The notes under the pieces: generated by a model | Databases searched by the model: none | Told to the model about the DNA's origin: nothing | The model's input: only the letters and a program-made list of their open reading frames with translations | Shown here: in pieces, positions 5,475 to 33,937 of the stretch | Numbering within the stretch: position 1 is the stretch's first letter | How the letters are laid out: every line of letters starts with the position of its first letter | Source: Flavobacteriales bacterium | GTDB taxonomy: Bacteria; Bacteroidota; Bacteroidia; Flavobacteriales_E; Vicingaceae | NCBI GenBank assembly: GCA_015075325.1 | Contig: JABTUP010000001.1 | Location: 124,001 to 188,000, forward strand | DNA: 64,000 nucleotides | Direction: 5' to 3' | Translations under genes and position numbers: made by a program

Positions 5475-5530
5475 AATCTTCTCGTCTATAATTTAACAAA
5501 CTTATTAAAAACTTGTTTAATACAAACAAT

Positions 5531-6739
5531 TTATTTAGTGTTGTTTAATAAAGATACGTATAGCTTTTCAATATCGTTGATTAATCGTGTGTAATGAAAC
5601 TTTTCTTTTACATGGTTCCAGCCTTCTTTTCCCATGCTAATTCGTAAATCATCATCTTCAACAAGTTGATTTAATGCATTATAAAATTGCTTTAAATCGT
5701 TTGGCGGAACAATAAAACCTGTTTGGTTATTTAACACTACATTTTCTACACCTCCTACATTAGTTGTTACAATAGGTTTATTTGATGCTTGTGCTTCGAT
5801 TAAACTTACTGGAGTTCCTTCATTTAACGAAGATAAGGCGATAATATCTAGTCCAGCATTTGCCCAATCAATTTCCTTAATCCAAGATGTAAAAGTTAAA
5901 TTTGCTTTTTGGGGTTCTTTATTAAATTCAATAAAATCAAGTTTTAATTCCTTACAATAGTTGAGTAAATGTTCTTTTTCTTCTCCATCTCCAATAATAA
6001 AAGCTCGAACTTTCTTATTGGATTTTTTAGTCAATTGATTTACAGCATCAATAAATAATTGGTGATTTTTTATGGGAACTAATCGACCAATTATTCCTAT
6101 TGCTATTTCATCATCATCTAACAAATAGTGATGTCTAAATGAGCTTCTTTTTTCGGCTTGATTTTCTTGAAAACGCGACAAATCAAATCCCAAAGGAACA
6201 ACTTTAATTTTTGATGTTTTACAAATTTTGTGTTCTTCCGAAAGCTCTCTTTTTTGGATATCGCTTATGGCTATAATTGCTGATGATTTTCTGGCTAAAT
6301 ATCGTTCAATATTCTTAAAAATTGCTGTTTTTGTTTTTCCAAAATACGAATGAAAAACATGTCCATGAAAAGTATGAACAATTACTGGAACTTTACATTT
6401 TGCAGCTGCCATTCTTCCTAAAGTTCCTGCTTTTGATGCGTGAGTATGTACAATGTCAGGCTTAAATTCTTGGATAATTTTTTTGAGTTTTTGGTAAGCT
6501 ATTTTGTCTTCTTTAAAGCCAATATCTCTTCGCATTTCTGAAATAATTATGGGTTCCAAACCCAATTGATTAAGAATAAATGTTGAACTTTCTTCCGAAT
6601 CATCTTTATCGCCACCTACCAATAAAGTTTCAAAATCATCGCTTAAATATTTAGTTAAATAAGCTGCATTAAAAGTTGGTCCTCCCAAATTGAAACGATT
6701 GATGATACGTAAAACTTTTATTTTCTTTTTCTCTTTCAT
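5531..6739 (-). CDS. Glycosyltransferase family 4 (GT-B fold)
   Basis: A 402-residue retaining-type glycosyltransferase. The N-terminus has the glycine-rich loop FNLGGPTFNAAYLTKYL, then PDIVHTHASKAGTLGRMAAA and VHTFHGHVFHSYFG. The C-terminal half has IGIIGRLVPIKNHQLFIDAV and the E-x7-E motif LNEGTPVSLIEAQ (Glu307 and Glu315), followed by VTTNVGGVENVV. These motifs support GT4; the donor and acceptor are unknown. It starts 2 nt after the asnB stop and is followed by the Wza-like gene after 56 nt, so it likely adds a sugar to the lipid-linked repeat unit of the polysaccharide made by this operon. Confidence 0.92.
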   Translation of the reverse strand: MKEKKKIKVLRIINRFNLGGPTFNAAYLTKYLSDDFETLLVGGDKDDSEESSTFILNQLGLEPIIISEMRRDIGFKEDKIAYQKLKKIIQEFKPDIVHTHASKAGTLGRMAAAKCKVPVIVHTFHGHVFHSYFGKTKTAIFKNIERYLARKSSAIIAISDIQKRELSEEHKICKTSKIKVVPLGFDLSRFQENQAEKRSSFRHHYLLDDDEIAIGIIGRLVPIKNHQLFIDAVNQLTKKSNKKVRAFIIGDGEEKEHLLNYCKELKLDFIEFNKEPQKANLTFTSWIKEIDWANAGLDIIALSSLNEGTPVSLIEAQASNKPIVTTNVGGVENVVLNNQTGFIVPPNDLKQFYNALNQLVEDDDLRISMGKEGWNHVKEKFHYTRLINDIEKLYVSLLNNTK

Positions 6740-6741
6740 TC

Positions 6742-16863: not shown

Positions 16864-17748
16864 ATGAGATTTGCTGCTGTAGATATTGGCTCCAATGCTG
16901 TAAGGTTACTTTTTTGTGATGTTGATGTTTTTCAAAATCATAAAGATGTAAAAAAAATATCCTTAATTCGATTGCCTATTCGATTGGGAGAAGATGTTTT
17001 CTCAAAAAAGAAAATATCTGCTAAAAACGCCAACCAACTCATTAAAGCACTAAATGCATTTAAAAATTTAGTTGATATTTACGAAGTCGTTGCTTTTAGA
17101 GTTTGTGCAACCTCAGCCTTTCGTGAAGCTAAAAATGGCAAAGAAGTAATTGAAAAAGTAAAGAAGAAAACCAACATTACTATAGAAATTATTGACGGAG
17201 ATACAGAAGCTAAATTATTATTAGAAACACATGTAACAGACCGTCTTAATTCACAAGGAACTTATTTATATATTGATGTTGGCGGAGGTAGTACAGAACT
17301 TTCCATTATTTCCAAAGGAAAAGCGATACAATCAAAATCTTTTAAAATTGGTACCATTCGTTTAAAAAATAATTTGGTTTCTGAAAGCACATGGAAAGAA
17401 ATGAAAGTTTGGCTGGAAAAAATCATCAAAAAACATCAACCCGAATTAGCCATTGGAACTGGTGGAAACATTAACAAACTATACAAAATGTGTGGTTTAA
17501 AAGATTATAAACTTTTTGAGTACACCAAATTAGAAGAAATTAACCAATTTATTGAGCAACACTCTATTGAGGAACGTATACTAAAACTAGGTTTAAAACC
17601 TGATAGAGCTGATGTTATTACCCATGCCGCAAAAGTTTATTTAACGGTTTTAGCTATTGCTAAAGTTGAAAATATGTTTATCCCAAAATTGGGTTTAGCA
17701 GACGGCGTAATTTATCAACTCAGCGAAAAGAAAATGAAAAGATCTTAA
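16864..17748 (+). CDS. Ppx/GppA-family phosphatase (exopolyphosphatase)
   Basis: A 294-residue ASKHA-fold phosphatase. The phosphate-1 motif is AAVDIGSNAVRLLFCDV (residues 4-20), followed by CATSAFREAKNG and IIDGDTEAKLLL. The phosphate-2 motif is YIDVGGGSTELSII, and there is AIGTGGNINKLYKM. This is the short single-module form usual in Bacteroidota, acting on polyphosphate or pppGpp; the two activities cannot be separated by eye. It is preceded by TAATATCTTGC, a near-consensus -7 box. An 18-bp palindrome (TTGTTAAATATTTAACAA, 17750-17767) follows the stop. Confidence 0.92.
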   Translation: MRFAAVDIGSNAVRLLFCDVDVFQNHKDVKKISLIRLPIRLGEDVFSKKKISAKNANQLIKALNAFKNLVDIYEVVAFRVCATSAFREAKNGKEVIEKVKKKTNITIEIIDGDTEAKLLLETHVTDRLNSQGTYLYIDVGGGSTELSIISKGKAIQSKSFKIGTIRLKNNLVSESTWKEMKVWLEKIIKKHQPELAIGTGGNINKLYKMCGLKDYKLFEYTKLEEINQFIEQHSIEERILKLGLKPDRADVITHAAKVYLTVLAIAKVENMFIPKLGLADGVIYQLSEKKMKRS

Positions 17749-17973: not shown

Positions 17974-20673
17974 ATGAAAAAAATAATATTATTTCTAACT
18001 GTAACAATGGGTTTATTTTTAAACCAAACAAAAGCTCAAGTAACAGTAAATAACACCAATACAGTTCAATTTTACGTTCAAAATGTGTTACTCGGAGGTG
18101 GTGTAACGGTTAGTAATATTACCTACAATGGTGTTCCAGCAGGAATTGTTGATGCAAAAGTTGGTCAATTTACAGATCCAACTTCTTCAGTAGGTTTAGC
18201 AAATGGAATGATACTGGCAACTGGTGATGCCATAATAGCTCAAGGACCAAACAGTTCTGGTGGTGCAGGAAACTCTGCTGGAATTGGAACTTCTGGACAA
18301 GACCCTGACTTAAGTGCAATTACAACCAATCCATTAAACGACCAGTGTATTGTTGAATTTGATTTTGTGCCACTCGGAGATACCCTTACTTTTAATTACG
18401 TTTTTGCTTCAGAAGAATATAACGAATATGTATGTTCAGATTACAATGATGTTTTTGGTTTTTTTCTAACAGGTAATGATCCATTAGGAGGCACATATAA
18501 TGCCTATAATTTAGCTAGAGTTCCAACACCTGGTGTTCCAGGTTCATTTACAAATACTCCAGTTGCAATTAACACAATTACTCCAGGAGTTGCAGGTTCA
18601 AATGGTGATGCGGCAAATTGTTCTGCAATCGACCCAAGTTGGACTGCATATAGTATTTACCATGTTACCAATAGTTCTAACAATTATCAATATGATGGTA
18701 GAACAGTTAGTTTGCCTGTATTTGCTTTAGTTAATTGTGGTGAAACATACCACATTAAAATGGCTATTGCCGATGTTCAAGATGGTGCTTTTGATTCGGG
18801 TGTATTTTTAGAAGCTGGTAGTTTTGCATCCAACGGATCTTTAGATGCTACAACAGCAGTTGTTCCTAATGATATCATGTTGTGTTCTCAACCTTACGAA
18901 ATTACTGTTAATGCAGGACCAACCCCTCCTCCAATCAGTTTTTGGGATTTTGGCGATGGAATTGGAACTTCAAATCTTGCAAATACAACCTATACCTATG
19001 CAGATACTGGAACTTATACTGTAACTTACATCGCCTCAGATCCTTCTGCATGTGTTGAGTCTGATACTGCTTATTTTACAGTTACCATAAGAGAAAATGT
19101 TCCTTTAGATGCTCAAATCAACATTCCTCCGTACGACCCTTGTTCTCCAGGTGGTTTAACCATTGATTTCGAATTTACTGGTGCTGGAGCCGATTCTATC
19201 CATTGGAATATGGGTAATGGAACTACATTTATCGATAGTACATCTTTTCAATACACCTATACTGTTGGAGGAAGTTATGTTTTAACTTTCCAAGCATGGG
19301 ATTTTGATTGTGGTGGGTATTCTCAAATTATAGATACCGTTCATTTCAACCCTAACTACACTCAAGTTAATGCAACTCCTCCTGGTAATCAATCTTTCTG
19401 TTCTCAACCTTATTTGGTGAATTTTGATGCTGGGGCTACTCCTCCGCCTAACAACTTCTGGGATTTTGGCGATGGCGTTGGTACTTCAACCCTTGCAAAC
19501 ACTTCTTATACTTATGCCGACACTGGTATTTATAACGTAATGTATGTGGCTATCGATTCTAGCACTTGTAATATTGCTGATACTGCTTATTTTACTGTTG
19601 AATTGATTAAACCTGAAGAATTGAATGCTCAATTCGTTATTCCTCCTTACGACCCTTGCTCTCCTAGTGGTTTAACTGTTCAGCTTGATTTTACTGGAAC
19701 TGGTGCCGATTCTATTTACTGGAATATGGGTGATGGAACTTCTTTTATTAATGATACTTCTGTTACTTATACTTACAATACTCCGGGTACTTTCTTCTTA
19801 GAATTTATTGCTTTTGATTTCGATTGTAATGTTTCTGATACCATTAGAGATACTATTTTTTACAATCCTACTACAACCACTGTTACTGCGGTTGTTCCAC
19901 CTAACATTACCATTTGTGGCTCTCCTTTAACTGTTAACTTCAACTCGGGTAGCCCTGCTCCTCCTCAAAATTTCTGGGATTTTGGTGATGGTAATACTTC
20001 TACTGCTATTGACCCTGCTCACAACTATGCTACTACTGGAACTTACACTGTAATGTTTGTCGCTATCGATTCTTCTACTTGTAACATTGCTGATAGTGCA
20101 ACTTTTAGCGTTAGTTTAGCTCAAGCTCCCGATTTAAATGTTAACATCGCTTACACACCACCAGTACCATGTGAAGCAACTAATTATAAAGTGGAACTAA
20201 GTGCTATTGGTTCTGGTGCCGATTCTATCTATTGGAATATGGGCGACGGAACAACATATATTGATTCTACTTTTATTGCCTACGAATATGCTTCTGCAGG
20301 TACATACAACATCGCTGTTTCATTGTTCAACTTCTTCTGTAACAGAATTGTAACCGAAAATTTAGTAGCAGAGTTTTATGAACCTAAAGAAACTAAGGGT
20401 ATCGTTCCTAACGTATTCACTCCTAATGGCGATAATTGGAACGACAAATTGGTTTTTGTTGGTGTTGACAATACTCAAGATTTTAGTATTAAAATATTCG
20501 ACCGTTGGGGTAGAAAAAAATTCGAATCTACTGATGCTACTGACCATTGGGATGGTGAAAATGCTTCGGAAGGTACTTACTTCTACGAACTTAAATATAC
20601 CGACGTATGTAGCAATATAGAAAAACTAGTTACTGGTACAGTTACGCTACTTAGAGGCCCTAAAAAACAGTAA
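17974..20673 (+). CDS. Secreted choice-of-anchor L / PKD-repeat protein with T9SS type B sorting domain (PKD protein A)
   Basis: An 899-residue exported protein. A signal peptide (MKKIILFLTVTMGLFLNQ, then TKAQ) is followed by a domain recognised as choice-of-anchor L (GMILATGDAIIAQGPNSSGG, FVFASEEYNEYVCSDYNDVF-like block, residues ~30-300). Six PKD modules follow from about residue 310, alternating FWDFGDG and WNMGDG/WNMGNG forms spaced about 85 residues apart. The end, from about residue 808 (GIVPNVFTPNGDNWND, IKIFDRWGRKKFES), is the gliding-motility-associated C-terminal domain used for type IX secretion and surface attachment. Likely a cell-surface adhesin or matrix protein (inference). 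The 3' third is nearly identical in DNA to the two genes downstream. Confidence 0.93.
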   Translation: MKKIILFLTVTMGLFLNQTKAQVTVNNTNTVQFYVQNVLLGGGVTVSNITYNGVPAGIVDAKVGQFTDPTSSVGLANGMILATGDAIIAQGPNSSGGAGNSAGIGTSGQDPDLSAITTNPLNDQCIVEFDFVPLGDTLTFNYVFASEEYNEYVCSDYNDVFGFFLTGNDPLGGTYNAYNLARVPTPGVPGSFTNTPVAINTITPGVAGSNGDAANCSAIDPSWTAYSIYHVTNSSNNYQYDGRTVSLPVFALVNCGETYHIKMAIADVQDGAFDSGVFLEAGSFASNGSLDATTAVVPNDIMLCSQPYEITVNAGPTPPPISFWDFGDGIGTSNLANTTYTYADTGTYTVTYIASDPSACVESDTAYFTVTIRENVPLDAQINIPPYDPCSPGGLTIDFEFTGAGADSIHWNMGNGTTFIDSTSFQYTYTVGGSYVLTFQAWDFDCGGYSQIIDTVHFNPNYTQVNATPPGNQSFCSQPYLVNFDAGATPPPNNFWDFGDGVGTSTLANTSYTYADTGIYNVMYVAIDSSTCNIADTAYFTVELIKPEELNAQFVIPPYDPCSPSGLTVQLDFTGTGADSIYWNMGDGTSFINDTSVTYTYNTPGTFFLEFIAFDFDCNVSDTIRDTIFYNPTTTTVTAVVPPNITICGSPLTVNFNSGSPAPPQNFWDFGDGNTSTAIDPAHNYATTGTYTVMFVAIDSSTCNIADSATFSVSLAQAPDLNVNIAYTPPVPCEATNYKVELSAIGSGADSIYWNMGDGTTYIDSTFIAYEYASAGTYNIAVSLFNFFCNRIVTENLVAEFYEPKETKGIVPNVFTPNGDNWNDKLVFVGVDNTQDFSIKIFDRWGRKKFESTDATDHWDGENASEGTYFYELKYTDVCSNIEKLVTGTVTLLRGPKKQ

Positions 20674-20693
20674 TTTTTACTTCCTTATAAAAT

Positions 20694-20721
20694 AAGCCCT
20701 TTGAAAAATTTCAAAGGGCTT
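20694..20721. terminator. Shared cluster terminator, copy 1
   Basis: Thirteen-base arms AAGCCCTTTGAAA and TTTCAAAGGGCTT, followed by a T tract, 20 nt after the stop of PKD protein A. The same hairpin follows all four PKD genes. Confidence 0.85.
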
Positions 20722-20902
20722 ATTTTTTTATAATACACCATCAATTTTTTTATTTAGGAGATTGATGCTTGTTAAAAAATTTTAACCAAACAAGCGATGT
20801 GTTAAAAAACATAGTATTTTTATCTAAAAACAAATAAAGTTTCACTATATGACAATAAATTAATATTTTAGCTGCAACTGTTTTTATAAAAAACAAGTCT
20901 TT

Positions 20903-20915
20903 AAAAAAAAAAAAA
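20903..20915 (+). repeat. A13 homopolymer upstream of PKD protein B1
   Basis: A run of 13 A bases ends 10 nt before the start codon at 20926; a second run of eight A sits in codons 2-5. An identical tract is at 25226-25238 before the duplicate. Such runs are prone to slippage, but no evidence of variation can be seen in one sequence. Confidence 0.6.
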
Positions 20916-20925
20916 TTAAAAATTT

Positions 20926-23900
20926 ATGATAAAAAAAATTAATCTACTTACTGCATTTTTATTGGTAGTAAATGTTATTGCTTTTGCTCATAACTATAAA
21001 GAATCTGATTATCACTTCACTGAAAATAAAGGGCAGTTAGATAATAAGGTAAAATATCATGCTAAAATACATGTTGGTGATATTTTCTTTGAGAAAAATG
21101 CGTTTACTTTCGATTTATTTAACGCTGAAGATTTAGATTTAGCGTATAAAGTAAGACACGATAAAAAATCTCGTGAGCTAAATGCAAACAAACCTATTAC
21201 ACTAAGAAAAAGTGCATATAGAATGAATTTTCTTAACTCAAATCCAAATGTTTTTCTTTCTACTACTGAGAATATTGGATATGTAAAAAACTACTTTATT
21301 GGTAATGATCCTTCTAAATGGGCTTCAGATGTTGAATCGTTTGAAAGACTTACCTATCATGAAATTTACAACGGAATTAGTGCCGAAATATACACACAAG
21401 ATGATCATTTAAAATATGATTTTATTGTAAAAGCTGGTGCTAATCCTAGTGATATTGTTGTTAATTACGATGGAGTTATTAGTTTAAATCTCAACCATGG
21501 TATTTTAGAAATTAGCCTTAAAAACACTTCTGTAAAAGAACTAAAACCAATTGCATATCAATACATACAAGGAAAAAAACAGTTGATAGATTGTGAATTT
21601 GTTGTTAATGGTACCAACGTATCATTTAAATTTCCTCAAGGATATGATAACACAAAAGAATTAATAATTGACCCAACTTGGATATTCTCTACATTAACAG
21701 GTTCTACTGCCGATAACTGGGGTTTTACTGCAACTTACGATGATAGTGGCAACTTTTATGGTGGAGGTATTGCCTTTGCTTCGGGTTTTCCAACAACAAC
21801 TGGTGCATATGATGTTTCTTTTGGAGGAGTTATTGATGCAGCAATAATTAAATACAATCCTTTAGGAACTGCTAGAGTTTATGCAACTTACATCGGAGGT
21901 TCTCAAGCAGATCAACCTCATAGTTTAGTAACCAATGATTTAGGTGAATTAGTAATTTATGGTGTAACAGGATCAAACAATTTTCCAACACAAAATGCTT
22001 TCGATGCGACTTTTAATGGAGGTACTTCCGTTGCTCCAAATGCTGCGACATTCTCTAATGGGTCGGATATTTTTGTAACAAAATTAAATGCCGCAGGAAA
22101 TGGTTTAATTGGTAGTACTTATGTGGGAGGAACAGGAAACGACGGATTTTCCTTAAATACAAGTTTACAATATAACTATTCAGATGAAAATAGAGGTGAA
22201 GTTGTAATTGACAACAATGGTGATATCTATGTTGCTTCAACCACAATTTCAACAAATTTTCCAACAACACCAGGAAGCCATAAACAAACCAACTCTGGAA
22301 ATTATGATGCCGTTGTTTTTAAACTTACTCCAACATTAAACGCTCTTACATGGTCAACATATTTAGGAGGTTCTAGCGGTGATGCTGGATATTCTATTCG
22401 TGTTAATGAATCAAATAACACCATAGTAGTTTGTGGAGGAACAGTAAGTAACAACATTGGAACCACTCCTGGAGTAATTAACCCAACCTATGGTGGATCT
22501 ACCGATGGATACATTGGTGTATTTAATAATTCTAATGGTTCTTTAAATGCACTTTCATATGTTGGAACTGCTGGATATGACCAAGCTTATATTGTTGAAG
22601 TAGATAAATTTGGAAATGTATTTACAACAGGTCAAACAAAAGGTGCATATCCTGTTACTAGTGGAGTTTATAGTAATCCAGGTTCATCTCAATTTATTCA
22701 TAAAATGAATAGTTCTTTATCTTCAACTGATTTTAGTACAGTTTTTGGAAGAGGCCAGAATAGTTCTATTGACATATCTATTACAGCATTTTTGGTTGAT
22801 AATTGTAGTAATGTTTATGTTGCTGGTTGGGGAGGCGGAAGTAATAACGAAGGAACTACTTCAGGATTACCTGTTACAACTGGAGCAATAAAAAGTACAA
22901 CAGATGGTGGTGATTTTTACTTCATTGTTTTAGAAAGAGATGCTGCTAGCTTATTGTACGGAACTTTTTTTGGACATAATAGTTCGCAAGAACATGTTGA
23001 TGGTGGTACTTCCCGTTTTGACAAAAGAGGAACCATTTATCAAGGCGTATGTGCTGCTTGTGGCGGTGGAAATAATTTCCCGTCTTCTCCTGGTGCTTAT
23101 TCTAGTACAAACGGTTCTTCAAACTGTAATTTCGGTGCAATTAAAATTGGACTTGAATTCCAAGGTATAGTTGCAAATGCCGACGATCCAGGAGATGTTT
23201 TATTGTGTGGAACTCCATATAATGTCGATTTTAATGCAGGTTCAACACCACCACCTCTAACTTTCTGGGATTTTGGTGATGGAAATACGCTAGGAATTGG
23301 TAGCTTTAATACTCCAACTCATACTTATGCTGATACTGGCAGCTATACCGTTATGTATGTAGCAATTGATTCATCTTCTTGTAATATTGCTGATACTGTG
23401 TTTTTTGACGTAAGAGTTATAAACAATGGAACGCTTGATGCTCAAATCAATATTCCTCCTTATGACCCCTGTGATGATAGTTTAACTGTTCAATTCGCAT
23501 TTACAGGTAGTGGAGCTGATTCTCTTTATTGGAATATGGGTGATGGAACTATATTTATTAACGATACTCTCATCAACTATACTTATACAACAAATGGGGT
23601 TTTTCCAATTTTATTTGAGGCTTACGACTTTGCTTGTGGTGGATTTAATACAGTTCGAGACACTATTTATTTTACTCCTAACTTTACTCAGGTTAATGCT
23701 ACTCCTCCTGGTAATCAATCTTTCTGTTCTCAACCTTATTTGGTGAATTTTGATGCTGGGGCTACTCCTCCGCCTAACAACTTCTGGGATTTTGGCGATG
23801 GTGTTGGTTCTTCTATTCTTCCTAATCCACAATACACGTATGGCGATACTGGTACTTATACCGTAATGTATGTGGCTATCGATTCTAGTACTTGTAACAT

Positions 23901-24996
23901 TGCTGATACTGCTTATTTTACTGTTGAATTGATTAAACCTGAAGAATTAGATGCTCAATTCGTTATTCCTCCTTACGACCCTTGTCAACCAACATTAACC
24001 GTTCAGTTTGATTTTACTGGAACTGGTGCCGATTCTATTTACTGGAACATGGGTGATGGCACTTCTTTTATCAACAACATTTCGGTTAATTATACTTACA
24101 ACACACCGGGTGTTTATCCTGTTGAGTTTATTGCTTTCGATTTCGATTGTAATGTTTCCGATACCATTAGAGATACTATCTATTTCAATCCTACTACAAC
24201 CACTGTTACTGCGGTTGTTCCACCTAACATTACCATTTGTGGCTCTCCTTTAACTGTTAACTTCAACTCGGGTAGCCCTGCTCCTCCTCAAAATTTCTGG
24301 GATTTTGGTGATGGTAATACTTCTACTGCTATTGACCCTGCTCACAACTATGCTACTACTGGAACTTACACTGTAATGTTTGTCGCTATCGATTCTTCTA
24401 CTTGTAACATTGCTGATAGTGCAACTTTTAGCGTTAGTTTAGCTCAAGCTCCCGATTTAAATGTTAACATCGCTTACACACCACCAGTACCATGTGAAGC
24501 AACTAATTATAAAGTGGAACTAAGTGCTATTGGTTCTGGTGCCGATTCTATCTATTGGAATATGGGCGACGGAACAACATATATTGATTCTACTTTTATT
24601 GCCTACGAATATGCTTCTGCAGGTACATACAACATCGCTGTTTCATTGTTCAACTTCTTCTGTAACAGAATTGTAACCGAAAATTTAGTAGCAGAGTTTT
24701 ATGAACCTAAAGAAACTAAGGGCATTGTTCCAAACGTATTCACTCCTAATGGCGATAATTGGAACGACAAATTAGTTTTTGTTGGTGTTGACAATACTCA
24801 AGATTTTAGTATTAAAATATTCGACCGTTGGGGTAGAAAAAAATTCGAATCTACTGATGCTACAGACCATTGGGATGGTGAAAATGCCTCGGAAGGTACT
24901 TACTTCTATGAGCTTAAATATACCGACGTTTGTAGCAACATAGAAAAACTAGTTACTGGTACAGTTACGCTACTTAGAGGCCCTAAAAAACAGTAA
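20926..24996 (+). CDS. Secreted SBBP beta-propeller / PKD-repeat protein with T9SS type B sorting domain (copy B1)
   Basis: A 1356-residue exported protein. The signal peptide is within MIKKINLLTAFLLVVNVIAFA. Residues ~30-250 form a conserved N-terminal domain (FTENKGQLDNKVKYHAKI), then a beta-propeller region of SBBP-like repeats (residues ~250-740; repeated YIGGSQADQPHSL, YVGGTGNDGFSL, YLGGSSGDAGYS blocks). Six PKD modules follow (about 745-1260), again alternating WDFGDG and WNMGDG, then the gliding-motility C-terminal sorting domain (~1265-1356) ending RGPKKQ. It differs from the next gene by one residue (Ser1231 here, Ala there). Its last few hundred bases and downstream spacer match PKD protein A, which marks it as a chimera. 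Confidence 0.93.
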   Translation: MIKKINLLTAFLLVVNVIAFAHNYKESDYHFTENKGQLDNKVKYHAKIHVGDIFFEKNAFTFDLFNAEDLDLAYKVRHDKKSRELNANKPITLRKSAYRMNFLNSNPNVFLSTTENIGYVKNYFIGNDPSKWASDVESFERLTYHEIYNGISAEIYTQDDHLKYDFIVKAGANPSDIVVNYDGVISLNLNHGILEISLKNTSVKELKPIAYQYIQGKKQLIDCEFVVNGTNVSFKFPQGYDNTKELIIDPTWIFSTLTGSTADNWGFTATYDDSGNFYGGGIAFASGFPTTTGAYDVSFGGVIDAAIIKYNPLGTARVYATYIGGSQADQPHSLVTNDLGELVIYGVTGSNNFPTQNAFDATFNGGTSVAPNAATFSNGSDIFVTKLNAAGNGLIGSTYVGGTGNDGFSLNTSLQYNYSDENRGEVVIDNNGDIYVASTTISTNFPTTPGSHKQTNSGNYDAVVFKLTPTLNALTWSTYLGGSSGDAGYSIRVNESNNTIVVCGGTVSNNIGTTPGVINPTYGGSTDGYIGVFNNSNGSLNALSYVGTAGYDQAYIVEVDKFGNVFTTGQTKGAYPVTSGVYSNPGSSQFIHKMNSSLSSTDFSTVFGRGQNSSIDISITAFLVDNCSNVYVAGWGGGSNNEGTTSGLPVTTGAIKSTTDGGDFYFIVLERDAASLLYGTFFGHNSSQEHVDGGTSRFDKRGTIYQGVCAACGGGNNFPSSPGAYSSTNGSSNCNFGAIKIGLEFQGIVANADDPGDVLLCGTPYNVDFNAGSTPPPLTFWDFGDGNTLGIGSFNTPTHTYADTGSYTVMYVAIDSSSCNIADTVFFDVRVINNGTLDAQINIPPYDPCDDSLTVQFAFTGSGADSLYWNMGDGTIFINDTLINYTYTTNGVFPILFEAYDFACGGFNTVRDTIYFTPNFTQVNATPPGNQSFCSQPYLVNFDAGATPPPNNFWDFGDGVGSSILPNPQYTYGDTGTYTVMYVAIDSSTCNIADTAYFTVELIKPEELDAQFVIPPYDPCQPTLTVQFDFTGTGADSIYWNMGDGTSFINNISVNYTYNTPGVYPVEFIAFDFDCNVSDTIRDTIYFNPTTTTVTAVVPPNITICGSPLTVNFNSGSPAPPQNFWDFGDGNTSTAIDPAHNYATTGTYTVMFVAIDSSTCNIADSATFSVSLAQAPDLNVNIAYTPPVPCEATNYKVELSAIGSGADSIYWNMGDGTTYIDSTFIAYEYASAGTYNIAVSLFNFFCNRIVTENLVAEFYEPKETKGIVPNVFTPNGDNWNDKLVFVGVDNTQDFSIKIFDRWGRKKFESTDATDHWDGENASEGTYFYELKYTDVCSNIEKLVTGTVTLLRGPKKQ

Positions 24997-25016
24997 TTTT
25001 TACTTCCTTATAAAAT

Positions 25017-25044
25017 AAGCCCTTTGAAAAATTTCAAAGGGCTT
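25017..25044. terminator. Shared cluster terminator, copy 2
   Basis: The same 13-bp-arm hairpin as at 20694-20721, inside a 252-bp spacer that repeats 20674-20925 base for base as far as I compared. Confidence 0.85.
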
Positions 25045-25248
25045 ATTTTTTTATAATACACCATCAATTTTTTTATTTAGGAGATTGATGCTTGTTAAAA
25101 AATTTTAACCAAACAAGCGATGTGTTAAAAAACATAGTATTTTTATCTAAAAACAAATAAAGTTTCACTATATGACAATAAATTAATATTTTAGCTGCAA
25201 CTGTTTTTATAAAAAACAAGTCTTTAAAAAAAAAAAAATTAAAAATTT

Positions 25249-28200
25249 ATGATAAAAAAAATTAATCTACTTACTGCATTTTTATTGGTAGTAAATGTTA
25301 TTGCTTTTGCTCATAACTATAAAGAATCTGATTATCACTTCACTGAAAATAAAGGGCAGTTAGATAATAAGGTAAAATATCATGCTAAAATACATGTTGG
25401 TGATATTTTCTTTGAGAAAAATGCGTTTACTTTCGATTTATTTAACGCTGAAGATTTAGATTTAGCGTATAAAGTAAGACACGATAAAAAATCTCGTGAG
25501 CTAAATGCAAACAAACCTATTACACTAAGAAAAAGTGCATATAGAATGAATTTTCTTAACTCAAATCCAAATGTTTTTCTTTCTACTACTGAGAATATTG
25601 GATATGTAAAAAACTACTTTATTGGTAATGATCCTTCTAAATGGGCTTCAGATGTTGAATCGTTTGAAAGACTTACCTATCATGAAATTTACAACGGAAT
25701 TAGTGCCGAAATATACACACAAGATGATCATTTAAAATATGATTTTATTGTAAAAGCTGGTGCTAATCCTAGTGATATTGTTGTTAATTACGATGGAGTT
25801 ATTAGTTTAAATCTCAACCATGGTATTTTAGAAATTAGCCTTAAAAACACTTCTGTAAAAGAACTAAAACCAATTGCATATCAATACATACAAGGAAAAA
25901 AACAGTTGATAGATTGTGAATTTGTTGTTAATGGTACCAACGTATCATTTAAATTTCCTCAAGGATATGATAACACAAAAGAATTAATAATTGACCCAAC
26001 TTGGATATTCTCTACATTAACAGGTTCTACTGCCGATAACTGGGGTTTTACTGCAACTTACGATGATAGTGGCAACTTTTATGGTGGAGGTATTGCCTTT
26101 GCTTCGGGTTTTCCAACAACAACTGGTGCATATGATGTTTCTTTTGGAGGAGTTATTGATGCAGCAATAATTAAATACAATCCTTTAGGAACTGCTAGAG
26201 TTTATGCAACTTACATCGGAGGTTCTCAAGCAGATCAACCTCATAGTTTAGTAACCAATGATTTAGGTGAATTAGTAATTTATGGTGTAACAGGATCAAA
26301 CAATTTTCCAACACAAAATGCTTTCGATGCGACTTTTAATGGAGGTACTTCCGTTGCTCCAAATGCTGCGACATTCTCTAATGGGTCGGATATTTTTGTA
26401 ACAAAATTAAATGCCGCAGGAAATGGTTTAATTGGTAGTACTTATGTGGGAGGAACAGGAAACGACGGATTTTCCTTAAATACAAGTTTACAATATAACT
26501 ATTCAGATGAAAATAGAGGTGAAGTTGTAATTGACAACAATGGTGATATCTATGTTGCTTCAACCACAATTTCAACAAATTTTCCAACAACACCAGGAAG
26601 CCATAAACAAACCAACTCTGGAAATTATGATGCCGTTGTTTTTAAACTTACTCCAACATTAAACGCTCTTACATGGTCAACATATTTAGGAGGTTCTAGC
26701 GGTGATGCTGGATATTCTATTCGTGTTAATGAATCAAATAACACCATAGTAGTTTGTGGAGGAACAGTAAGTAACAACATTGGAACCACTCCTGGAGTAA
26801 TTAACCCAACCTATGGTGGATCTACCGATGGATACATTGGTGTATTTAATAATTCTAATGGTTCTTTAAATGCACTTTCATATGTTGGAACTGCTGGATA
26901 TGACCAAGCTTATATTGTTGAAGTAGATAAATTTGGAAATGTATTTACAACAGGTCAAACAAAAGGTGCATATCCTGTTACTAGTGGAGTTTATAGTAAT
27001 CCAGGTTCATCTCAATTTATTCATAAAATGAATAGTTCTTTATCTTCAACTGATTTTAGTACAGTTTTTGGAAGAGGCCAGAATAGTTCTATTGACATAT
27101 CTATTACAGCATTTTTGGTTGATAATTGTAGTAATGTTTATGTTGCTGGTTGGGGAGGCGGAAGTAATAACGAAGGAACTACTTCAGGATTACCTGTTAC
27201 AACTGGAGCAATAAAAAGTACAACAGATGGTGGTGATTTTTACTTCATTGTTTTAGAAAGAGATGCTGCTAGCTTATTGTACGGAACTTTTTTTGGACAT
27301 AATAGTTCGCAAGAACATGTTGATGGTGGTACTTCCCGTTTTGACAAAAGAGGAACCATTTATCAAGGCGTATGTGCTGCTTGTGGCGGTGGAAATAATT
27401 TCCCGTCTTCTCCTGGTGCTTATTCTAGTACAAACGGTTCTTCAAACTGTAATTTCGGTGCAATTAAAATTGGACTTGAATTCCAAGGTATAGTTGCAAA
27501 TGCCGACGATCCAGGAGATGTTTTATTGTGTGGAACTCCATATAATGTCGATTTTAATGCAGGTTCAACACCACCACCTCTAACTTTCTGGGATTTTGGT
27601 GATGGAAATACGCTAGGAATTGGTAGCTTTAATACTCCAACTCATACTTATGCTGATACTGGCAGCTATACCGTTATGTATGTAGCAATTGATTCATCTT
27701 CTTGTAATATTGCTGATACTGTGTTTTTTGACGTAAGAGTTATAAACAATGGAACGCTTGATGCTCAAATCAATATTCCTCCTTATGACCCCTGTGATGA
27801 TAGTTTAACTGTTCAATTCGCATTTACAGGTAGTGGAGCTGATTCTCTTTATTGGAATATGGGTGATGGAACTATATTTATTAACGATACTCTCATCAAC
27901 TATACTTATACAACAAATGGGGTTTTTCCAATTTTATTTGAGGCTTACGACTTTGCTTGTGGTGGATTTAATACAGTTCGAGACACTATTTATTTTACTC
28001 CTAACTTTACTCAGGTTAATGCTACTCCTCCTGGTAATCAATCTTTCTGTTCTCAACCTTATTTGGTGAATTTTGATGCTGGGGCTACTCCTCCGCCTAA
28101 CAACTTCTGGGATTTTGGCGATGGTGTTGGTTCTTCTATTCTTCCTAATCCACAATACACGTATGGCGATACTGGTACTTATACCGTAATGTATGTGGCT

Positions 28201-29319
28201 ATCGATTCTAGTACTTGTAACATTGCTGATACTGCTTATTTTACTGTTGAATTGATTAAACCTGAAGAATTAGATGCTCAATTCGTTATTCCTCCTTACG
28301 ACCCTTGTCAACCAACATTAACCGTTCAGTTTGATTTTACTGGAACTGGTGCCGATTCTATTTACTGGAACATGGGTGATGGCACTTCTTTTATCAACAA
28401 CATTTCGGTTAATTATACTTACAACACACCGGGTGTTTATCCTGTTGAGTTTATTGCTTTCGATTTCGATTGTAATGTTTCCGATACCATTAGAGATACT
28501 ATCTATTTCAATCCTACTACAACCACTGTTACTGCGGTTGTTCCACCTAACATTACCATTTGTGGCTCTCCTTTAACTGTTAACTTCAACTCGGGTAGCC
28601 CTGCTCCTCCTCAAAATTTCTGGGATTTTGGTGATGGTAATACTTCTACTGCTATTGACCCTGCTCACAACTATGCTACTACTGGAACTTACACTGTAAT
28701 GTTTGTCGCTATCGATTCTTCTACTTGTAACATTGCTGATAGTGCAACTTTTAGCGTTAGTTTAGCTCAAGCTCCCGATTTAAATGTTAACATCGCTTAC
28801 ACACCACCAGTACCATGTGAAGCAACTAATTATAAAGTGGAACTAAGTGCTATTGGTTCTGGTGCCGATTCTATCTATTGGAATATGGGCGACGGAACAA
28901 CATATATTGATTCTACTTTTATTGCCTACGAATATGCTGCTGCTGGTACATACAACATCGCTGTTTCATTGTTCAACTTCTTCTGTAACAGAATTGTAAC
29001 CGAAAATTTAGTAGCAGAGTTTTATGAACCTAAAGAAACTAAGGGCATTGTTCCAAACGTATTCACTCCTAATGGCGATAATTGGAACGACAAATTAGTT
29101 TTTGTTGGTGTTGACAATACTCAAGATTTTAGTATTAAAATATTCGACCGTTGGGGTAGAAAAAAATTCGAATCTACTGATGCTACTGACCATTGGGATG
29201 GTGAAAATGCTTCGGAAGGCACTTACTTCTACGAACTTAAATATACCGACGTTTGTAGTAACATAGAAAAACTAGTTACAGGAACGGTTACATTACTAAG
29301 AGGCCCTAAAAAACAGTAA
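25249..29319 (+). CDS. Secreted SBBP beta-propeller / PKD-repeat protein with T9SS type B sorting domain (copy B2)
   Basis: The second 1356-residue copy, with the same signal peptide, N-terminal domain, SBBP propeller, six alternating PKD modules and T9SS type B sorting domain as its neighbour. At residue 1231 it has Ala in place of Ser (GCTGCTGCTGG at 28936-28946). The final 40 bp and the downstream spacer do not match copy B1. They match the end of the 1103-residue gene instead (ACAGGAACGGTTACATTACT, then TAATAAATACACAT). This suggests copy B2 keeps the ancestral 3' end while copy B1 acquired the end of protein A. Role at the cell surface is inferred. Confidence 0.93.
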   Translation: MIKKINLLTAFLLVVNVIAFAHNYKESDYHFTENKGQLDNKVKYHAKIHVGDIFFEKNAFTFDLFNAEDLDLAYKVRHDKKSRELNANKPITLRKSAYRMNFLNSNPNVFLSTTENIGYVKNYFIGNDPSKWASDVESFERLTYHEIYNGISAEIYTQDDHLKYDFIVKAGANPSDIVVNYDGVISLNLNHGILEISLKNTSVKELKPIAYQYIQGKKQLIDCEFVVNGTNVSFKFPQGYDNTKELIIDPTWIFSTLTGSTADNWGFTATYDDSGNFYGGGIAFASGFPTTTGAYDVSFGGVIDAAIIKYNPLGTARVYATYIGGSQADQPHSLVTNDLGELVIYGVTGSNNFPTQNAFDATFNGGTSVAPNAATFSNGSDIFVTKLNAAGNGLIGSTYVGGTGNDGFSLNTSLQYNYSDENRGEVVIDNNGDIYVASTTISTNFPTTPGSHKQTNSGNYDAVVFKLTPTLNALTWSTYLGGSSGDAGYSIRVNESNNTIVVCGGTVSNNIGTTPGVINPTYGGSTDGYIGVFNNSNGSLNALSYVGTAGYDQAYIVEVDKFGNVFTTGQTKGAYPVTSGVYSNPGSSQFIHKMNSSLSSTDFSTVFGRGQNSSIDISITAFLVDNCSNVYVAGWGGGSNNEGTTSGLPVTTGAIKSTTDGGDFYFIVLERDAASLLYGTFFGHNSSQEHVDGGTSRFDKRGTIYQGVCAACGGGNNFPSSPGAYSSTNGSSNCNFGAIKIGLEFQGIVANADDPGDVLLCGTPYNVDFNAGSTPPPLTFWDFGDGNTLGIGSFNTPTHTYADTGSYTVMYVAIDSSSCNIADTVFFDVRVINNGTLDAQINIPPYDPCDDSLTVQFAFTGSGADSLYWNMGDGTIFINDTLINYTYTTNGVFPILFEAYDFACGGFNTVRDTIYFTPNFTQVNATPPGNQSFCSQPYLVNFDAGATPPPNNFWDFGDGVGSSILPNPQYTYGDTGTYTVMYVAIDSSTCNIADTAYFTVELIKPEELDAQFVIPPYDPCQPTLTVQFDFTGTGADSIYWNMGDGTSFINNISVNYTYNTPGVYPVEFIAFDFDCNVSDTIRDTIYFNPTTTTVTAVVPPNITICGSPLTVNFNSGSPAPPQNFWDFGDGNTSTAIDPAHNYATTGTYTVMFVAIDSSTCNIADSATFSVSLAQAPDLNVNIAYTPPVPCEATNYKVELSAIGSGADSIYWNMGDGTTYIDSTFIAYEYAAAGTYNIAVSLFNFFCNRIVTENLVAEFYEPKETKGIVPNVFTPNGDNWNDKLVFVGVDNTQDFSIKIFDRWGRKKFESTDATDHWDGENASEGTYFYELKYTDVCSNIEKLVTGTVTLLRGPKKQ
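25249..29319 (+). repeat. Tandem duplication unit 2
   Basis: Second copy of the duplicated gene. It matches unit 1 at an offset of 4323 bp from the start codon to about 28935. Differences then appear in patches up to the stop, and the spacer beyond the stop is unrelated to that of unit 1 apart from the terminator hairpin. Confidence 0.9.
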
Positions 29320-29342
29320 TAAATACACATTAATACATAAAT

Positions 29343-29370
29343 AAGCCCTTTGAAAAATTTCAAAGGGCTT
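29343..29370. terminator. Shared cluster terminator, copy 3
   Basis: AAGCCCTTTGAAA and TTTCAAAGGGCTT arms with a T tract, preceded by TAAATACACATTAATACATA, the spacer type also found after the 1103-residue gene. Confidence 0.85.
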
Positions 29371-29505
29371 GTTTTTTTTAACTTAAAAACCTTATATTTT
29401 TAATATTTAAACAAAAACTTAAAAATAAGAGACTTCATCTTTGAAAAAACAAACGTAACCTTTACATTAGTAAAATGTAATTTTTAATAAAACAAACAAG
29501 AAATA

Positions 29506-32500
29506 ATGAGAAAAAAAGTACACTTAATTTTAATATTTTCTTTGATAGTATTAAATACATTTTCACAACAAACGAATATTAAAAAAGATATTAATTATGA
29601 AGTTACTAAATATATTAGTAATGATAAATTAAACAAAGAAGTAAAGGAGTTTTTAGTAAAACAAATCAGAAAAACTAACTTAGTTAAGAATAGTGATAAT
29701 CACGATTTGGTTCATTTTTTCTTAGATAGATATGAAAATAGTATTAAACAAATGATAATTAGTCGATTTGAAAATCAAAAATCGATTACCCATGATGAAT
29801 TAAATAATATTATTGAAAATGAGTTCCTTCCTAAACTAGTTGATTCTTTTAATAAATATAACTTGAAATATCCAAAAACAAAAAGCTCAGTCAAAAATAA
29901 TCAAATAGATTTCATCAAATTTAAAAACAATCAAAACTTAAAAGGTGCAGGTGAACCATGTTTAAATGCTGATTTTGAAACACAAGACGCAACGGGTTGG
30001 GATTTAGCTCAAGGAGAAGTTGATGCAGCACCAACAGCACCATTTAATTACATAAATGTTACCCCAACAACTCTTGCTACTTCAACTCAACATTCTATTA
30101 TGACAGGTGCAGGAACCGATGCAATTGGTGGTTTTCCTGTAGTATTTCCAGGAGGAACCTCATCATTGATGTTGGGTGATGGAACAGGAACAAATAATAG
30201 TGCAGCAGATGCATCTCAAACATTTTTAGTTGATGCAAATTCAGCCGCTTTTAGTTACAGTTATGCAATAGTTTTAATGGACCCTGGACATACTGCAGCC
30301 GAACAGCCATATTTTAAAATAAATATGTATGATTCTTTAGGAAACACTATTCAGTGCGGTGATTATTCAGTAGTTGCGGGAGGTGGCTCTGGTGCCGACC
30401 CCGATTTTCTTCCTTTCACCTATGGGGGAGAAAATGGAGTTTATATGCCTTGGAGAACTACATTTGCTCCATTACAAGGTTATATCGGGCAAAATGTTAC
30501 AATTGAGTTTGTTGTTGGTGATTGTTCTCAAGGAGCTCACTTTGGATACGCATATATCGATGCATCTTGTTCGTCGATGGAAGTACTTGGTCCTGATACC
30601 ATTACATGTGATGGCCCTATTCAAATAACCGCTCCTCCAGGAGCAGCTAGTTACTTATGGAGCCCAACAGGAGAAACAACCCAATCAATTACAGTTACTA
30701 CACCCGGACAATATGAAGTTCAAGTAACTCCTGTAACAGGTGCTGTATGTAGCATAACATTAACTAAAGATATCTATGAATTTGTAGATACAGTAAATGC
30801 ATCGTTTAGTGCAAATCCATTAACAATTTGTACTGGAGAAACGGTTTCTTTTACTGATCAATCTACAGTTACTGGTTCAGGATTAATTTCGGCATGGGAA
30901 TGGGATTTTGATGGTGACGGTAATGTTGATAACATGAATCAAAATCCAAATTTTCAATACAATACTGCAGGTATTTATAATGTTAATTTAAATGTAATTA
31001 CTCAAGGCTGTTCTGATGATACTACTATGCAAATTATTGTTAATCAAACTCCTACTGCAAATTTTGAATCTCCTGAAGTTTGTTTAGGACTAACTTCTGT
31101 ATTTACTGATGTTTCATTAGGAACACCATCAACATGGGCTTGGGATTTTGATAACGATGGAAATGTTGATGAATCTATTCAGAATCCTACCTTTACATAC
31201 TCTTCAACAGGAACTTTTCCTGTAAAATTAACTGTAACTGATGGTGGATTTTGTTCACACGATACTATTATTAATGTTATTGTTTCTCAGAATTCAACAG
31301 CAATGTTTACCGCAACAACAGTTTGTTTAGGGGTTGCAACTAATTTTACTGATGCGTCATTAGGTGGTGTTAATACTTGGGGATGGGATTTTGATAATGA
31401 TGGTATTGTTGATAATACAACCCAAAATCCAAGTTTTACATTTGGCACAATAGGTACTTTCCCTGTTAATCTTCAAGTATCTGTTGGTAGTAACTGCCAA
31501 CATGATACCACCATTAATGTAACAGTTAACGAAAGTGCTATTGCAAATTTTAGTGCCTCAACAGTATGTTTTGGTAGTACCACAACTTTTACAGACAATT
31601 CTTCCTTAGGTGTAGATTCTTGGGAATGGGATTTTAACAATGATGGGGTAATTGATAACACTACTCAAAACCCAACTTATGTTTTCCCTTCTTCTGGTTC
31701 TTTTCCTGTTAATCTTCAAGTTTCTGTTGGAGGACAATGTTCAAATGATACCACAATAAACATTACTGTAAATAATATGGCTGTGGCTAATTTTACATTT
31801 ACACCAACATGTCAAAACGATACAACTTTAATGAATGATTTATCATCATCTGGTGTTGACACTTGGAATTGGGATTTTAATAACGATGGGGTGATAGATA
31901 ATACGAATCAAAACCCTAGCTTTATTTTTCCATCTTCAGGTTCATTTCCAGTTAATTTAGAAGTTTCATACAGTGGTAATTGTGTTCATGATACTACTAT
32001 AAATATTACTATTTCACCTAAACCATCAGCAAATTTTACATCTAGTAGCGAGTGTTTTGGAAATGCAACCAATTTTGTTGATAATTCACTTTCTAATGGA
32101 GGTATTATTACTCAATGGAATTGGGATTTTAATAATGATGGAGTGGTTGATAATACAAGTCAGAATCCTACAAATACATTAACATCTTCGGGTTCGCATC
32201 AAGTCGAATTAATTGTTACAACTAATAATGGTTGCTCAGATTCCATAATGTTGAATGTAAATGTACTTTCAAATCCAATAGCTGACTTTAATATCGAATC
32301 CAATCCTTGCGAAACTAATAATGTAACATTTTCAAATATTTCGACAAATGGTGACGGGATAATATCTTCATATTTTTGGGATATAAATAACGACGGAACA
32401 ATAGAATCAACACTTTCAAGTCCTTTATTTGATTTTAGCAATTTATCTAATGTTACAATATTTCTTGCTATTGGGGACAACAATGGATGTGTTGACACTA

Positions 32501-32817
32501 CAGTTAAAGTATTAGACATCATTAAAAATGAACTCAAGGAAAATATTGTGCCTAATATTTTTACTCCAAATGGAGATAATTGGAATGATTTATTAGTTGT
32601 TAAAGGAATTGATGACACAAAAGATTATAGCATTAAAATATTTAACCGTTGGGGAAGATTAATGTTCGAATCTAAAGACGCAACAAAATATTGGGATGGA
32701 GAAGGAGCAGATGATGGCACTTATTTTTATGAACTAAAATACACTGCCATGTGTAGTTCGGAAGAAAAATTAGTAACAGGAACGGTTACATTACTAAGAG
32801 GTCCTAAAAAACAGTAA
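29506..32817 (+). CDS. Secreted PKD-repeat protein with T9SS type B sorting domain (PKD protein C)
   Basis: An 1103-residue exported protein. The signal peptide is MRKKVHLILIFSLIVLNTFS. Residues ~25-140 are charged and probably helical (VKEFLVKQIRKTNLVKNSDN), followed by an uncharacterised region (GEPCLNADFETQDATGWDLA) resembling a carbohydrate-binding-type beta domain. An Ig-like segment (GAASYLWSPTGETTQSITVT) precedes seven PKD modules of the form WxWDFDNDGxVDNxxQNP, each about 80 residues. The C-terminal type B sorting domain starts near 1010 (NIVPNIFTPNGDNWND) and ends in the same TGTVTLLRGPKKQ as the other three proteins. The PKD modules differ from those of proteins A and B, so only the C-terminal tag and the 3' end are shared. 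Confidence 0.92.
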   Translation: MRKKVHLILIFSLIVLNTFSQQTNIKKDINYEVTKYISNDKLNKEVKEFLVKQIRKTNLVKNSDNHDLVHFFLDRYENSIKQMIISRFENQKSITHDELNNIIENEFLPKLVDSFNKYNLKYPKTKSSVKNNQIDFIKFKNNQNLKGAGEPCLNADFETQDATGWDLAQGEVDAAPTAPFNYINVTPTTLATSTQHSIMTGAGTDAIGGFPVVFPGGTSSLMLGDGTGTNNSAADASQTFLVDANSAAFSYSYAIVLMDPGHTAAEQPYFKINMYDSLGNTIQCGDYSVVAGGGSGADPDFLPFTYGGENGVYMPWRTTFAPLQGYIGQNVTIEFVVGDCSQGAHFGYAYIDASCSSMEVLGPDTITCDGPIQITAPPGAASYLWSPTGETTQSITVTTPGQYEVQVTPVTGAVCSITLTKDIYEFVDTVNASFSANPLTICTGETVSFTDQSTVTGSGLISAWEWDFDGDGNVDNMNQNPNFQYNTAGIYNVNLNVITQGCSDDTTMQIIVNQTPTANFESPEVCLGLTSVFTDVSLGTPSTWAWDFDNDGNVDESIQNPTFTYSSTGTFPVKLTVTDGGFCSHDTIINVIVSQNSTAMFTATTVCLGVATNFTDASLGGVNTWGWDFDNDGIVDNTTQNPSFTFGTIGTFPVNLQVSVGSNCQHDTTINVTVNESAIANFSASTVCFGSTTTFTDNSSLGVDSWEWDFNNDGVIDNTTQNPTYVFPSSGSFPVNLQVSVGGQCSNDTTINITVNNMAVANFTFTPTCQNDTTLMNDLSSSGVDTWNWDFNNDGVIDNTNQNPSFIFPSSGSFPVNLEVSYSGNCVHDTTINITISPKPSANFTSSSECFGNATNFVDNSLSNGGIITQWNWDFNNDGVVDNTSQNPTNTLTSSGSHQVELIVTTNNGCSDSIMLNVNVLSNPIADFNIESNPCETNNVTFSNISTNGDGIISSYFWDINNDGTIESTLSSPLFDFSNLSNVTIFLAIGDNNGCVDTTVKVLDIIKNELKENIVPNIFTPNGDNWNDLLVVKGIDDTKDYSIKIFNRWGRLMFESKDATKYWDGEGADDGTYFYELKYTAMCSSEEKLVTGTVTLLRGPKKQ

Positions 32818-32840
32818 TAAATACACATTTATACATAAAT

Positions 32841-32868
32841 AAGCCCTTTGAAAAATTTCAAAGGGCTT
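32841..32868. terminator. Shared cluster terminator, copy 4 (bidirectional)
   Basis: The same 13-bp-arm hairpin, lying between convergent genes: it follows PKD protein C on the plus strand and the MscS gene (stop at 32879) on the minus strand, with A/T tracts on both sides. Confidence 0.85.
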
Positions 32869-32878
32869 ATTTTTTTCT

Positions 32879-33937
32879 CTAATTTAATGACTTTGAATAT
32901 ATGGTTTGTGTTGGGAAAGCAAAAGATAAATTGTTTTCATTAAATCGTTTAAGAATTTCTAAACTAATTTCAGATTGAGTTAAAAAGATATCGGATTCTT
33001 TTTTAATGAAATAAATAAAAGTTATTCCAAGATTAAAATCACCAAAAGTTGTAAAACTAATAACAGTTCCTTCATCTAAGTTTGAACTTTTTTCAGAAAT
33101 ATCTTTTAATATGTCCATTGCCTTTTGCATTTCTTGTGGCGTTGTTTCATAAACTAAACCAAGATTCAATGTTATTTTCCTAGTTGGTTCTGCTGTAACA
33201 TTTTCTACAATATTTCCAATAAATAATGAGTTTGGAATAGTAACTAATCTTCCTTCAAGAGTTCTAAGCCTTGTTACTTGAAAACTAATTTCTGAAACAA
33301 AACCATCAAACCCATTTATTTTTATTCTGTCTCCAATTTTAAATGATTTTATGGTAAATACCATTACCCCTCCAAACATATTTGAAACAGTTTCTTTTGC
33401 AGCCATTGCTAAAGCTAAACCTCCAATACCCAAACCTGCTATTAAAGCTCCGACATCATAACCAGCATTGTTTAAAGCAACAATTAATCCTACCGACCAA
33501 ATAACTGCACGAAATACTTTTTGAACTATAGGTAAAACCTGATTATCTAGAGCTCCTTCCGATTTTTCTGCAAATGGAATTAAATACTCTTTAATAACAG
33601 CATCAATAAATCGAGCTACAAACCATGTAATGTTTATTACAATTAAAATATGATAAATTTTACCTAACCAACCATCTAAACTATTCGAAAAATGCAATCG
33701 TTCTAAACCAGCCCATATTCCAGCAATGGCAATTGCAAAAACAACAGGCTGCTCAAGCATATCAATTAAAATATCATCTAATCTAGATTTTGATTTTGAA
33801 GTTAGTTGTTTTAAAATTTTGTTAGTGAACCATGTAACCAATTTTCCAATTACAATTGCTCCTACAATAATTCCTAAACTAATAAACCAGTTGCTAACTG
33901 AATTTCCATAGAACTGATTGTTTAAAAATTCTTCCAT
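32879..33937 (-). CDS. MscS-family mechanosensitive ion channel
   Basis: A 352-residue membrane protein. Hydrophobic segments lie near residues 15-35, 65-85 and 100-115. The pore-lining TM3 and start of the beta domain are recognisable (ALIAGLGIGGLALAMAAKETVSNMFGG), followed by VFTIKSFKIGDRIKINGFDG and RLRTLEGRLVTIPNS. MscS-type channels open under membrane tension and release solutes on osmotic downshock. It is convergent with the PKD cluster and preceded by a TAATTTTG -7 box. Confidence 0.94.
   Translation of the reverse strand: MEEFLNNQFYGNSVSNWFISLGIIVGAIVIGKLVTWFTNKILKQLTSKSKSRLDDILIDMLEQPVVFAIAIAGIWAGLERLHFSNSLDGWLGKIYHILIVINITWFVARFIDAVIKEYLIPFAEKSEGALDNQVLPIVQKVFRAVIWSVGLIVALNNAGYDVGALIAGLGIGGLALAMAAKETVSNMFGGVMVFTIKSFKIGDRIKINGFDGFVSEISFQVTRLRTLEGRLVTIPNSLFIGNIVENVTAEPTRKITLNLGLVYETTPQEMQKAMDILKDISEKSSNLDEGTVISFTTFGDFNLGITFIYFIKKESDIFLTQSEISLEILKRFNENNLSFAFPTQTIYSKSLN

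Follow-up and report, generated by a model that had tools for sequence, protein, structure and literature searches.

How did two nearly identical genes for a large, presumably cell-surface, protein come to stand head to tail in this bacterial DNA, and are their neighbours involved in the process? The window, that is, the whole stretch of 64,000 nucleotides that we analysed, lies in a 279-kb contig and contains no N. Between genes for a phosphatase and for a channel protein, it carries a row of genes that we call A to D. Genes B and C are the two copies of what we call gene 2, and gene 1 denotes the counterpart of gene A in two related genomes, G002 and G003; a further genome, G001, also serves for comparison. 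The genes and elements of the array and its flanks are as follows.

16864-17748, plus strand: Ppx/GppA phosphatase (PF02541), left flank; the G001 ortholog is 80% identical and syntenic.
17974-20673, plus strand: gene A, 899 amino acids, with a choice-of-anchor-L domain (NF038133), PKD repeats (PF18911) and a T9SS type-B C-terminal domain (CTD; PF13585/TIGR04131).
20674-20925, plus strand: spacer A-B, 252 bp, with a terminator and the conserved promoter-like block TTAATATTTTAGCTGCAACTG; equal to 24997-25248.
20689-20726, plus strand: terminator-like palindrome after gene A; the same palindrome follows genes B (25012-25049), C (29339-29374) and D (32837-32872).
20926-24996, plus strand: gene B, 1356 amino acids, with DUF7948, a beta-propeller, PKD and a T9SS type-B CTD; the 3' end is a hybrid, C-like and then A-like.
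24997-25248, plus strand: spacer B-C, 252 bp, identical to spacer A-B.
25249-29319, plus strand: gene C, 1356 amino acids, with the substitution S1231A; second copy of gene 2.
29506-32817, plus strand: gene D, 1103 amino acids, with PKD repeats and a T9SS type-B CTD.
32879-33937, minus strand: MscS-like channel (PF00924), right flank; syntenic in G001 and G002 and, by position, in G003.

A search of the array proteins against Pfam and NCBIfam returned PKD, DUF7948, SBBP and CHU_C together with weak unrelated matches, and no Hop/Bab model. The CHU_C/TIGR04131 domain stands at the extreme C-terminus and scores above the curated cut-offs in A, B and D; in gene C, the protein sequence of this domain is that of gene B. 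The gene-2 protein has a hydrophobic N-terminus, where a helix of residues 2-20 is predicted in the structure model, and the N-terminal 755 residues of gene B have a confident predicted fold (pLDDT 85.6). Within this model, residues 254-744 find their best fold match in the propeller of CylK (PDB 7fh6), an SBBP-type beta-propeller, with a Z of 38 and an rmsd of 2.2-2.4 A over about 386 residues at 20% identity. This modelled likeness supports the presence of an SBBP-type beta-propeller in the gene-2 protein. CylK is an alkylating enzyme, but the likeness concerns the propeller fold and not the enzyme activity.

The start codons of genes B and C lie 4323 bp apart, and the two proteins differ at a single residue, 1231, which is Ser in B and Ala in C. 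When the window was compared with itself at an offset of 4323, a run of 3999 bp matched without a mismatch (20617-24615 = 24940-28938), and it includes the identical 252-bp spacers. Thus, the near-perfect 4.3-kb tandem duplication that the earlier note had described, with proteins one residue apart and identical DNA across the spacer, is present in the assembly. The limits given there for the duplicated unit hold in part. That is, the spacing of 4323 bp stands, but the unit does not start at 20926: the exact repeat begins before the start of gene B, inside the 3' end of the coding region of the upstream gene A, and the near-identity extends back to 19863 (98.7% over 19863-20616). On the other side, the sequence 3' of gene C is unrelated to the spacer 3' of gene B (37% over 252 bp) except for the common terminator palindrome. 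Tandem Repeats Finder, the period limit of which is 500, reported nothing at a period of 4323 bp.

The base-by-base comparison of the units also showed that their divergence is not equal throughout. Fourteen of the 4071 coding positions differ between B and C, 13 of them synonymously, and all 14 fall in 24616-24975 within the last 381 nt, in the C-terminal region. If differences were evenly spread, the probability of this placement would be (381/4071)^14, or about 4e-15. The N-terminal 740 amino acids of B and C are identical, with a dS of 0. The claim that the duplication is fresh is supported by the 3999 bp with 0 differences.

Genes A, B and C are near-identical at their 3' ends, whereas in their 5' parts A encodes a different protein from the one that B and C share. 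A three-way comparison in register gave the following features.

19863-20399, plus strand: homogenised PKD tract in gene A; equal to 24186-24722 in B and, except at 2 sites, to 28509-29045 in C.
20617-24939, plus strand: repeat unit 1 (4323 bp), which comprises the end of the gene A CTD, the spacer and gene B to the junction (offset-4323 comparison).
24864-24912, plus strand: four synonymous B-private sites, at which A equals C and B differs (three-way site table).
24940-24956, plus strand: recombination interval, as inferred, between the last position at which A differs from both B and C (24939) and the first of the continuous stretch in which B equals A and not C (24957).
24940-29262, plus strand: repeat unit 2 (4323 bp; offset-4323 comparison).
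29278-29319, plus strand: last 42 nt of gene C, D-like, with 1 difference from gene D as against 7 in A and B.

Positions at which A stands apart from B and C alike occur as far as 20616/24939. From 20634/24957 onward, gene B equals A and not C, through the stop codon and the entire 252-bp spacer. Gene B is therefore a gene 2 that ends like A and has behind it the spacer from downstream of A; this is the product expected if A and gene 2 crossed over unequally in their 3' ends. This switch from C-like to A-like sequence inside the CTD of gene B agrees with the earlier suggestion that recombination is at work at this locus. We note that the membership of A and D in the recombining array, and the position of the junction inside the T9SS signal, had been overlooked there.

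Tandem amplification dependent on RecA proceeds by unequal crossover between direct repeats; it leaves a hybrid junction and an unstable copy number. The window likewise contains a head-to-tail unit, at the junction of which two homologous end segments are joined in a hybrid, and an unstable copy number is to be expected. The difference lies in the seeding homology: in the array, it comes from the secretion-signal ends of two different genes and not from an IS element or an rRNA operon.

Taken comprehensively, we think it probable that the tandem duplication is recent and was seeded by recombination through the common PKD/T9SS-signal ends, in an array that is under concerted evolution of its 3' ends and that may serve a reversible dosage function. 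Genes A to D would be neighbouring T9SS type-B surface-protein genes, the 3' ends of which (the last PKD unit and the secretion signal, to the stop codon) are homogenised by homologous recombination. In the ancestral state, one gene 2 would have stood between A and D. Because the 3' ends of A and gene 2 are similar, sister chromosomes may then have paired out of register there, and the resulting unequal crossover would have produced the order A, gene 2 with the hybrid end, gene 2, D, with its 4323-bp tandem duplication. The 3999-bp direct repeats would make further gain or loss of copies easy, and small conversion tracts would go on patching the 3' ends.

A single clean crossover leaves several sites unaccounted for, namely the B-private sites at 24864-24912, two C-private sites (28939/28944), and sites left of the junction at which A equals B. 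To explain them, one has to assume additional conversion events or a donor that has been lost. The B-private, C-private and D-like patches are likely to be small conversion tracts, perhaps from lost copies, and the donor of the B-private patch in particular may be such a copy. Gene D was considered as the sole donor of the four B-private sites and was rejected, since it matches at 2 of the 4.

These tracts bear on an alternative, in which the duplication of B and C is older and the bodies of the two genes have been overwritten repeatedly by gene conversion. Conversion tracts are clearly present, and the 3' ends of B and C differ by a dS of about 0.23 over 98 codons, as against none in the N-terminal 740 codons. 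Conversion would, however, have to be confined to the 4-kb body and the two spacers and to spare the last 381 bp, whereas a new unequal crossover accounts more simply for the A-like end of gene B and for its spacer of the A type. We therefore consider an older duplication unlikely.

A duplication read from an assembly may also be produced by the assembly, either by a loop of the assembly graph at the repeated 3' ends or by the merging of two strains, so that a single gene 2 is shown twice. The corresponding locus of G003 shows how this could happen, because the assembly breaks there at 127-bp repeats. In G003, gene 1, gene 2 and D lie on separate contigs. The contigs that carry gene 1 (C6) and gene 2 (C65) have their last 127 bp exactly in common, and C65 and C66, the latter of which runs into gene D and MscS, have their first 127 bp exactly in common, to 2 bp past the stop codon of the preceding gene. 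The missing common PKD/CTD segment was found on none of the other contigs of G003. The locus is readable as gene1-X-(gene2-X)n-D, that is, as a loop with variable n; an assembly graph built with k=127 would look like this if the 3' ends had been collapsed into one (X). Thus, G003 independently points to the same homogenisation of 3' ends, and this homogenisation explains why such genes stand at contig breaks in an assembly of the short-read type. Since 3'-end repeats break assemblies, counts of the copies of such genes in metagenome-assembled genomes are probably too low.

The assembly of the window behaves otherwise. Comparison of k-mers among 79 of its contig ends gave no end-to-end or prefix overlaps, unlike G003, and is informative only by that contrast. 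The same assembly also crosses three identical 1026-bp IS copies with unique flanks, which shows a resolving power of at least 1 kb for repeats; a 4-kb tandem exceeds what these controls prove, and the exact copy number is unreadable from the assembly alone. Against a plain chimera of A and C, the 3' end of gene B has its four variants that are absent from both, and these private variants show that a 3' end of the B type exists in the sample. Together with the absence of N from the window, these points make an artefact or a strain mixture, in our judgement, distinctly unlikely.

It can also be imagined that the duplication arose non-homologously or through microhomology and that the 3' end of gene B was converted by A afterwards. 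Conversion between members of the array is visible, so that a history of two steps is possible. No separate breakpoint is visible, however, and a crossover within the homologous CTD explains the hybrid end as well as the duplicated spacer; we regard the two-step history as quite improbable.

What might the second copy do? The core of the terminator palindrome occurs 4 times in the genome, each time in this array (after A to D), and the block TTAATATTTTAGCTGCAACTG before gene 2 has a conserved counterpart in G003 and a partly conserved one in G002. To judge from its sequence, the block looks like a promoter; a scan for sigma-70-type promoters gave hits no more numerous than those in shuffled sequence. 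Because both copies have the promoter-like block, B and C are probably both transcribed. A higher dosage from two copies is plausible, since each copy has a terminator of its own on one side and, on the other, a spacer that contains this conserved block. The function would then be a reversible change in the dosage of a large propeller/PKD protein of the cell surface.

Antigenic variation, which the earlier note had offered as another role, fits the data poorly. A selected system with copies that act as donors would be in keeping with surface proteins that have recombining ends and with the sharp contrast between distinct 5' and common 3' parts. But recombination between B and C, which are one protein except for one residue, yields no variety, and what different genes exchange is their PKD/secretion-signal end and not the N-terminal part. 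Silent or partial gene-2 cassettes were not found elsewhere in the genome, where the nearest other relatives are 44-46% identical. Such a system is, in our opinion, very improbable.

The reading of 3'-end concerted evolution can be examined across genomes. At the same site, G001 has a single unrelated T9SS gene between Ppx and MscS, and G002 has gene 2 and then gene 1, in that order. The N-termini of gene 2 are 80% identical to the ortholog in G003 and 73% to that in G002, and those of gene 1 are 70% and 66% identical, respectively. Between species, the N-terminal dS is 1.2-1.8 for gene 2 and 1.5-1.8 for gene 1. The 3' ends behave differently: their dS is 0.08-0.28 within the window genome (0.08-0.11 for A against B and C over the last 290 codons) and 0.08-0.40 for the pairs of all genomes, whereas it is saturated between species. 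The value of 0.40 belongs to the CTDs of gene 1 and gene 2 in G002, which are 90% identical in nucleotides. In a tree of CTD DNA, A, B and C of the window (98/97) and the two genes of G002 (100/100) cluster by genome, and trees in which the CTDs were grouped by orthology were rejected by the AU test. These results indicate that the 5' parts follow species descent and that the 3' ends have been homogenised within G002, as the contig ends point to in G003. The hybrid end of gene B is a single, fixed instance of a chimeric gene. The CTD of gene D groups with its G003 ortholog in the protein tree, and D is less involved in the homogenisation than A, B and C.

We surveyed 16 adjacent pairs of type-B genes at the 11 loci that have such pairs, with unrelated pairs as the background (99th percentile, 0.66 nucleotide identity). 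Pairs in the window, in G002 and at two further loci, L119 and L106, exceeded this percentile, and the remaining pairs did not. A general homogenisation of adjacent type-B CTDs is thus rejected, with 4 of 11 loci above the background; homogenisation of 3' ends recurs without being universal. An adjacent pair of DUF7948 proteins in G038 showed no 3' homogenisation. At L119, on a distant contig, two neighbouring T9SS genes have 829 bp exactly identical near their 3' ends, and a single mismatch lies 32 nt upstream of where the stop codon ends. Their sequences are unrelated directly past the stop and clearly diverged upstream of the common segment.

It is known that type-B CTDs are recognised by specific PorP/SprF shuttles and that orphans with similar CTDs share one (PMC12618676), and selection on the protein for one common shuttle might by itself keep CTDs alike without exchange of DNA; it would leave synonymous divergence unlowered, against a dS of 0.08-0.28 within the genome and above 1.2 between species, and it does not fit the 829 bp of exact identity at L119, so that its probability is close to negligible. 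Of the 13 PorP/SprF shuttle genes in the genome, 0 lie on the contig of the array, and therefore the array proteins count as orphan type-B substrates, as that study uses the term. As there, several substrates with a type-B CTD (TIGR04131) and no linked PorP/SprF gene have CTDs that are alike. The CTDs of the orphans described are more than 44% identical, whereas those of the array are 100% identical among A, B and C and 70% for D, and their genes are clustered. The type-B CTDs of the array would probably share one unlinked shuttle. Homogenisation at the level of DNA is in this way tied to a need at the level of protein, because type-B signals must match a specific shuttle.

The scars in the sequence give a concrete example from Bacteroidota of how families of giant surface proteins expand by recombination through a common secretion-signal end. 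As a tentative and rather doubtful extension, the type-B signal segment and the last PKD repeat may form a standing recombination handle in many lineages of Bacteroidota, kept alike by gene conversion between neighbouring cargo genes. If so, whole passenger genes could be multiplied or deleted, or could acquire the same shuttle-specific signal by fusion. In the literature, as far as our incomplete coverage reached, we found no description of T9SS genes that evolve in concert, cross over unequally or are duplicated in tandem.

The closest likeness that we found is to the outer-membrane adhesin paralogs babA/babB and homA/homB of Helicobacter pylori. According to the review PMC3960876, which cites Pride and Blaser 2002, the 5' and middle parts of these genes follow descent between strains, whereas their 3' segments resemble each other inside one genome. 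The two systems have in common that 3' ends evolve in concert and that surface-protein loci undergo gene conversion and changes of copy number. The array resembles bab/hom at the level of DNA, and its proteins lie outside the Hop/Bab family. The proteins of the two systems are unrelated, and the common end in the array is a T9SS type-B signal with PKD repeats. The array genes are also adjacent, and what their recombination has visibly produced is not an allele switch but a tandem duplication whose junction is hybrid.

In the stretch 24864-24912 of the window, copy B of the tandemly duplicated gene carries four synonymous differences that are private to it. These are absent from both the neighbouring gene A and the twin copy C, and D matches at only half of them. 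The four sites may have been left behind by a donor copy that has since been lost, or may stem from another strain.

In the related genome G002, the PKD region of the gene 2 ortholog (L141:12581-14506) is an expanded tandem array, the units of which are about 520 bp long and 71-80% identical. This expansion accounts for a protein of 1705 aa in place of 1356 aa.

On a distant contig, two T9SS type-B genes lie side by side (L119:7280-12822) and have an 829-bp exact stretch in common near their 3' ends. This contig is labelled Saccharospirillaceae, and T9SS type-B genes are typical of Bacteroidota; the taxonomic label of its bin looks doubtful.

Other features were as follows.

Window 2272-8655 (-), exopolysaccharide-type cluster with a Wzc-like tyrosine kinase and an asparagine-synthase-like amidotransferase
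Window ~54.8-55.8 kb, IS element with a DDE_Tnp_1 transposase (ORF 54809-55705, -)
G000:C1:44838-45144 (contig positions, outside the window), rve integrase-core matches split over two overlapping frames

The split rve matches are perhaps a decayed or frameshifted transposase. The IS element has three copies genome-wide that are identical or nearly so across 1026 bp (two of the three on the window's contig), and two further copies at 89%.
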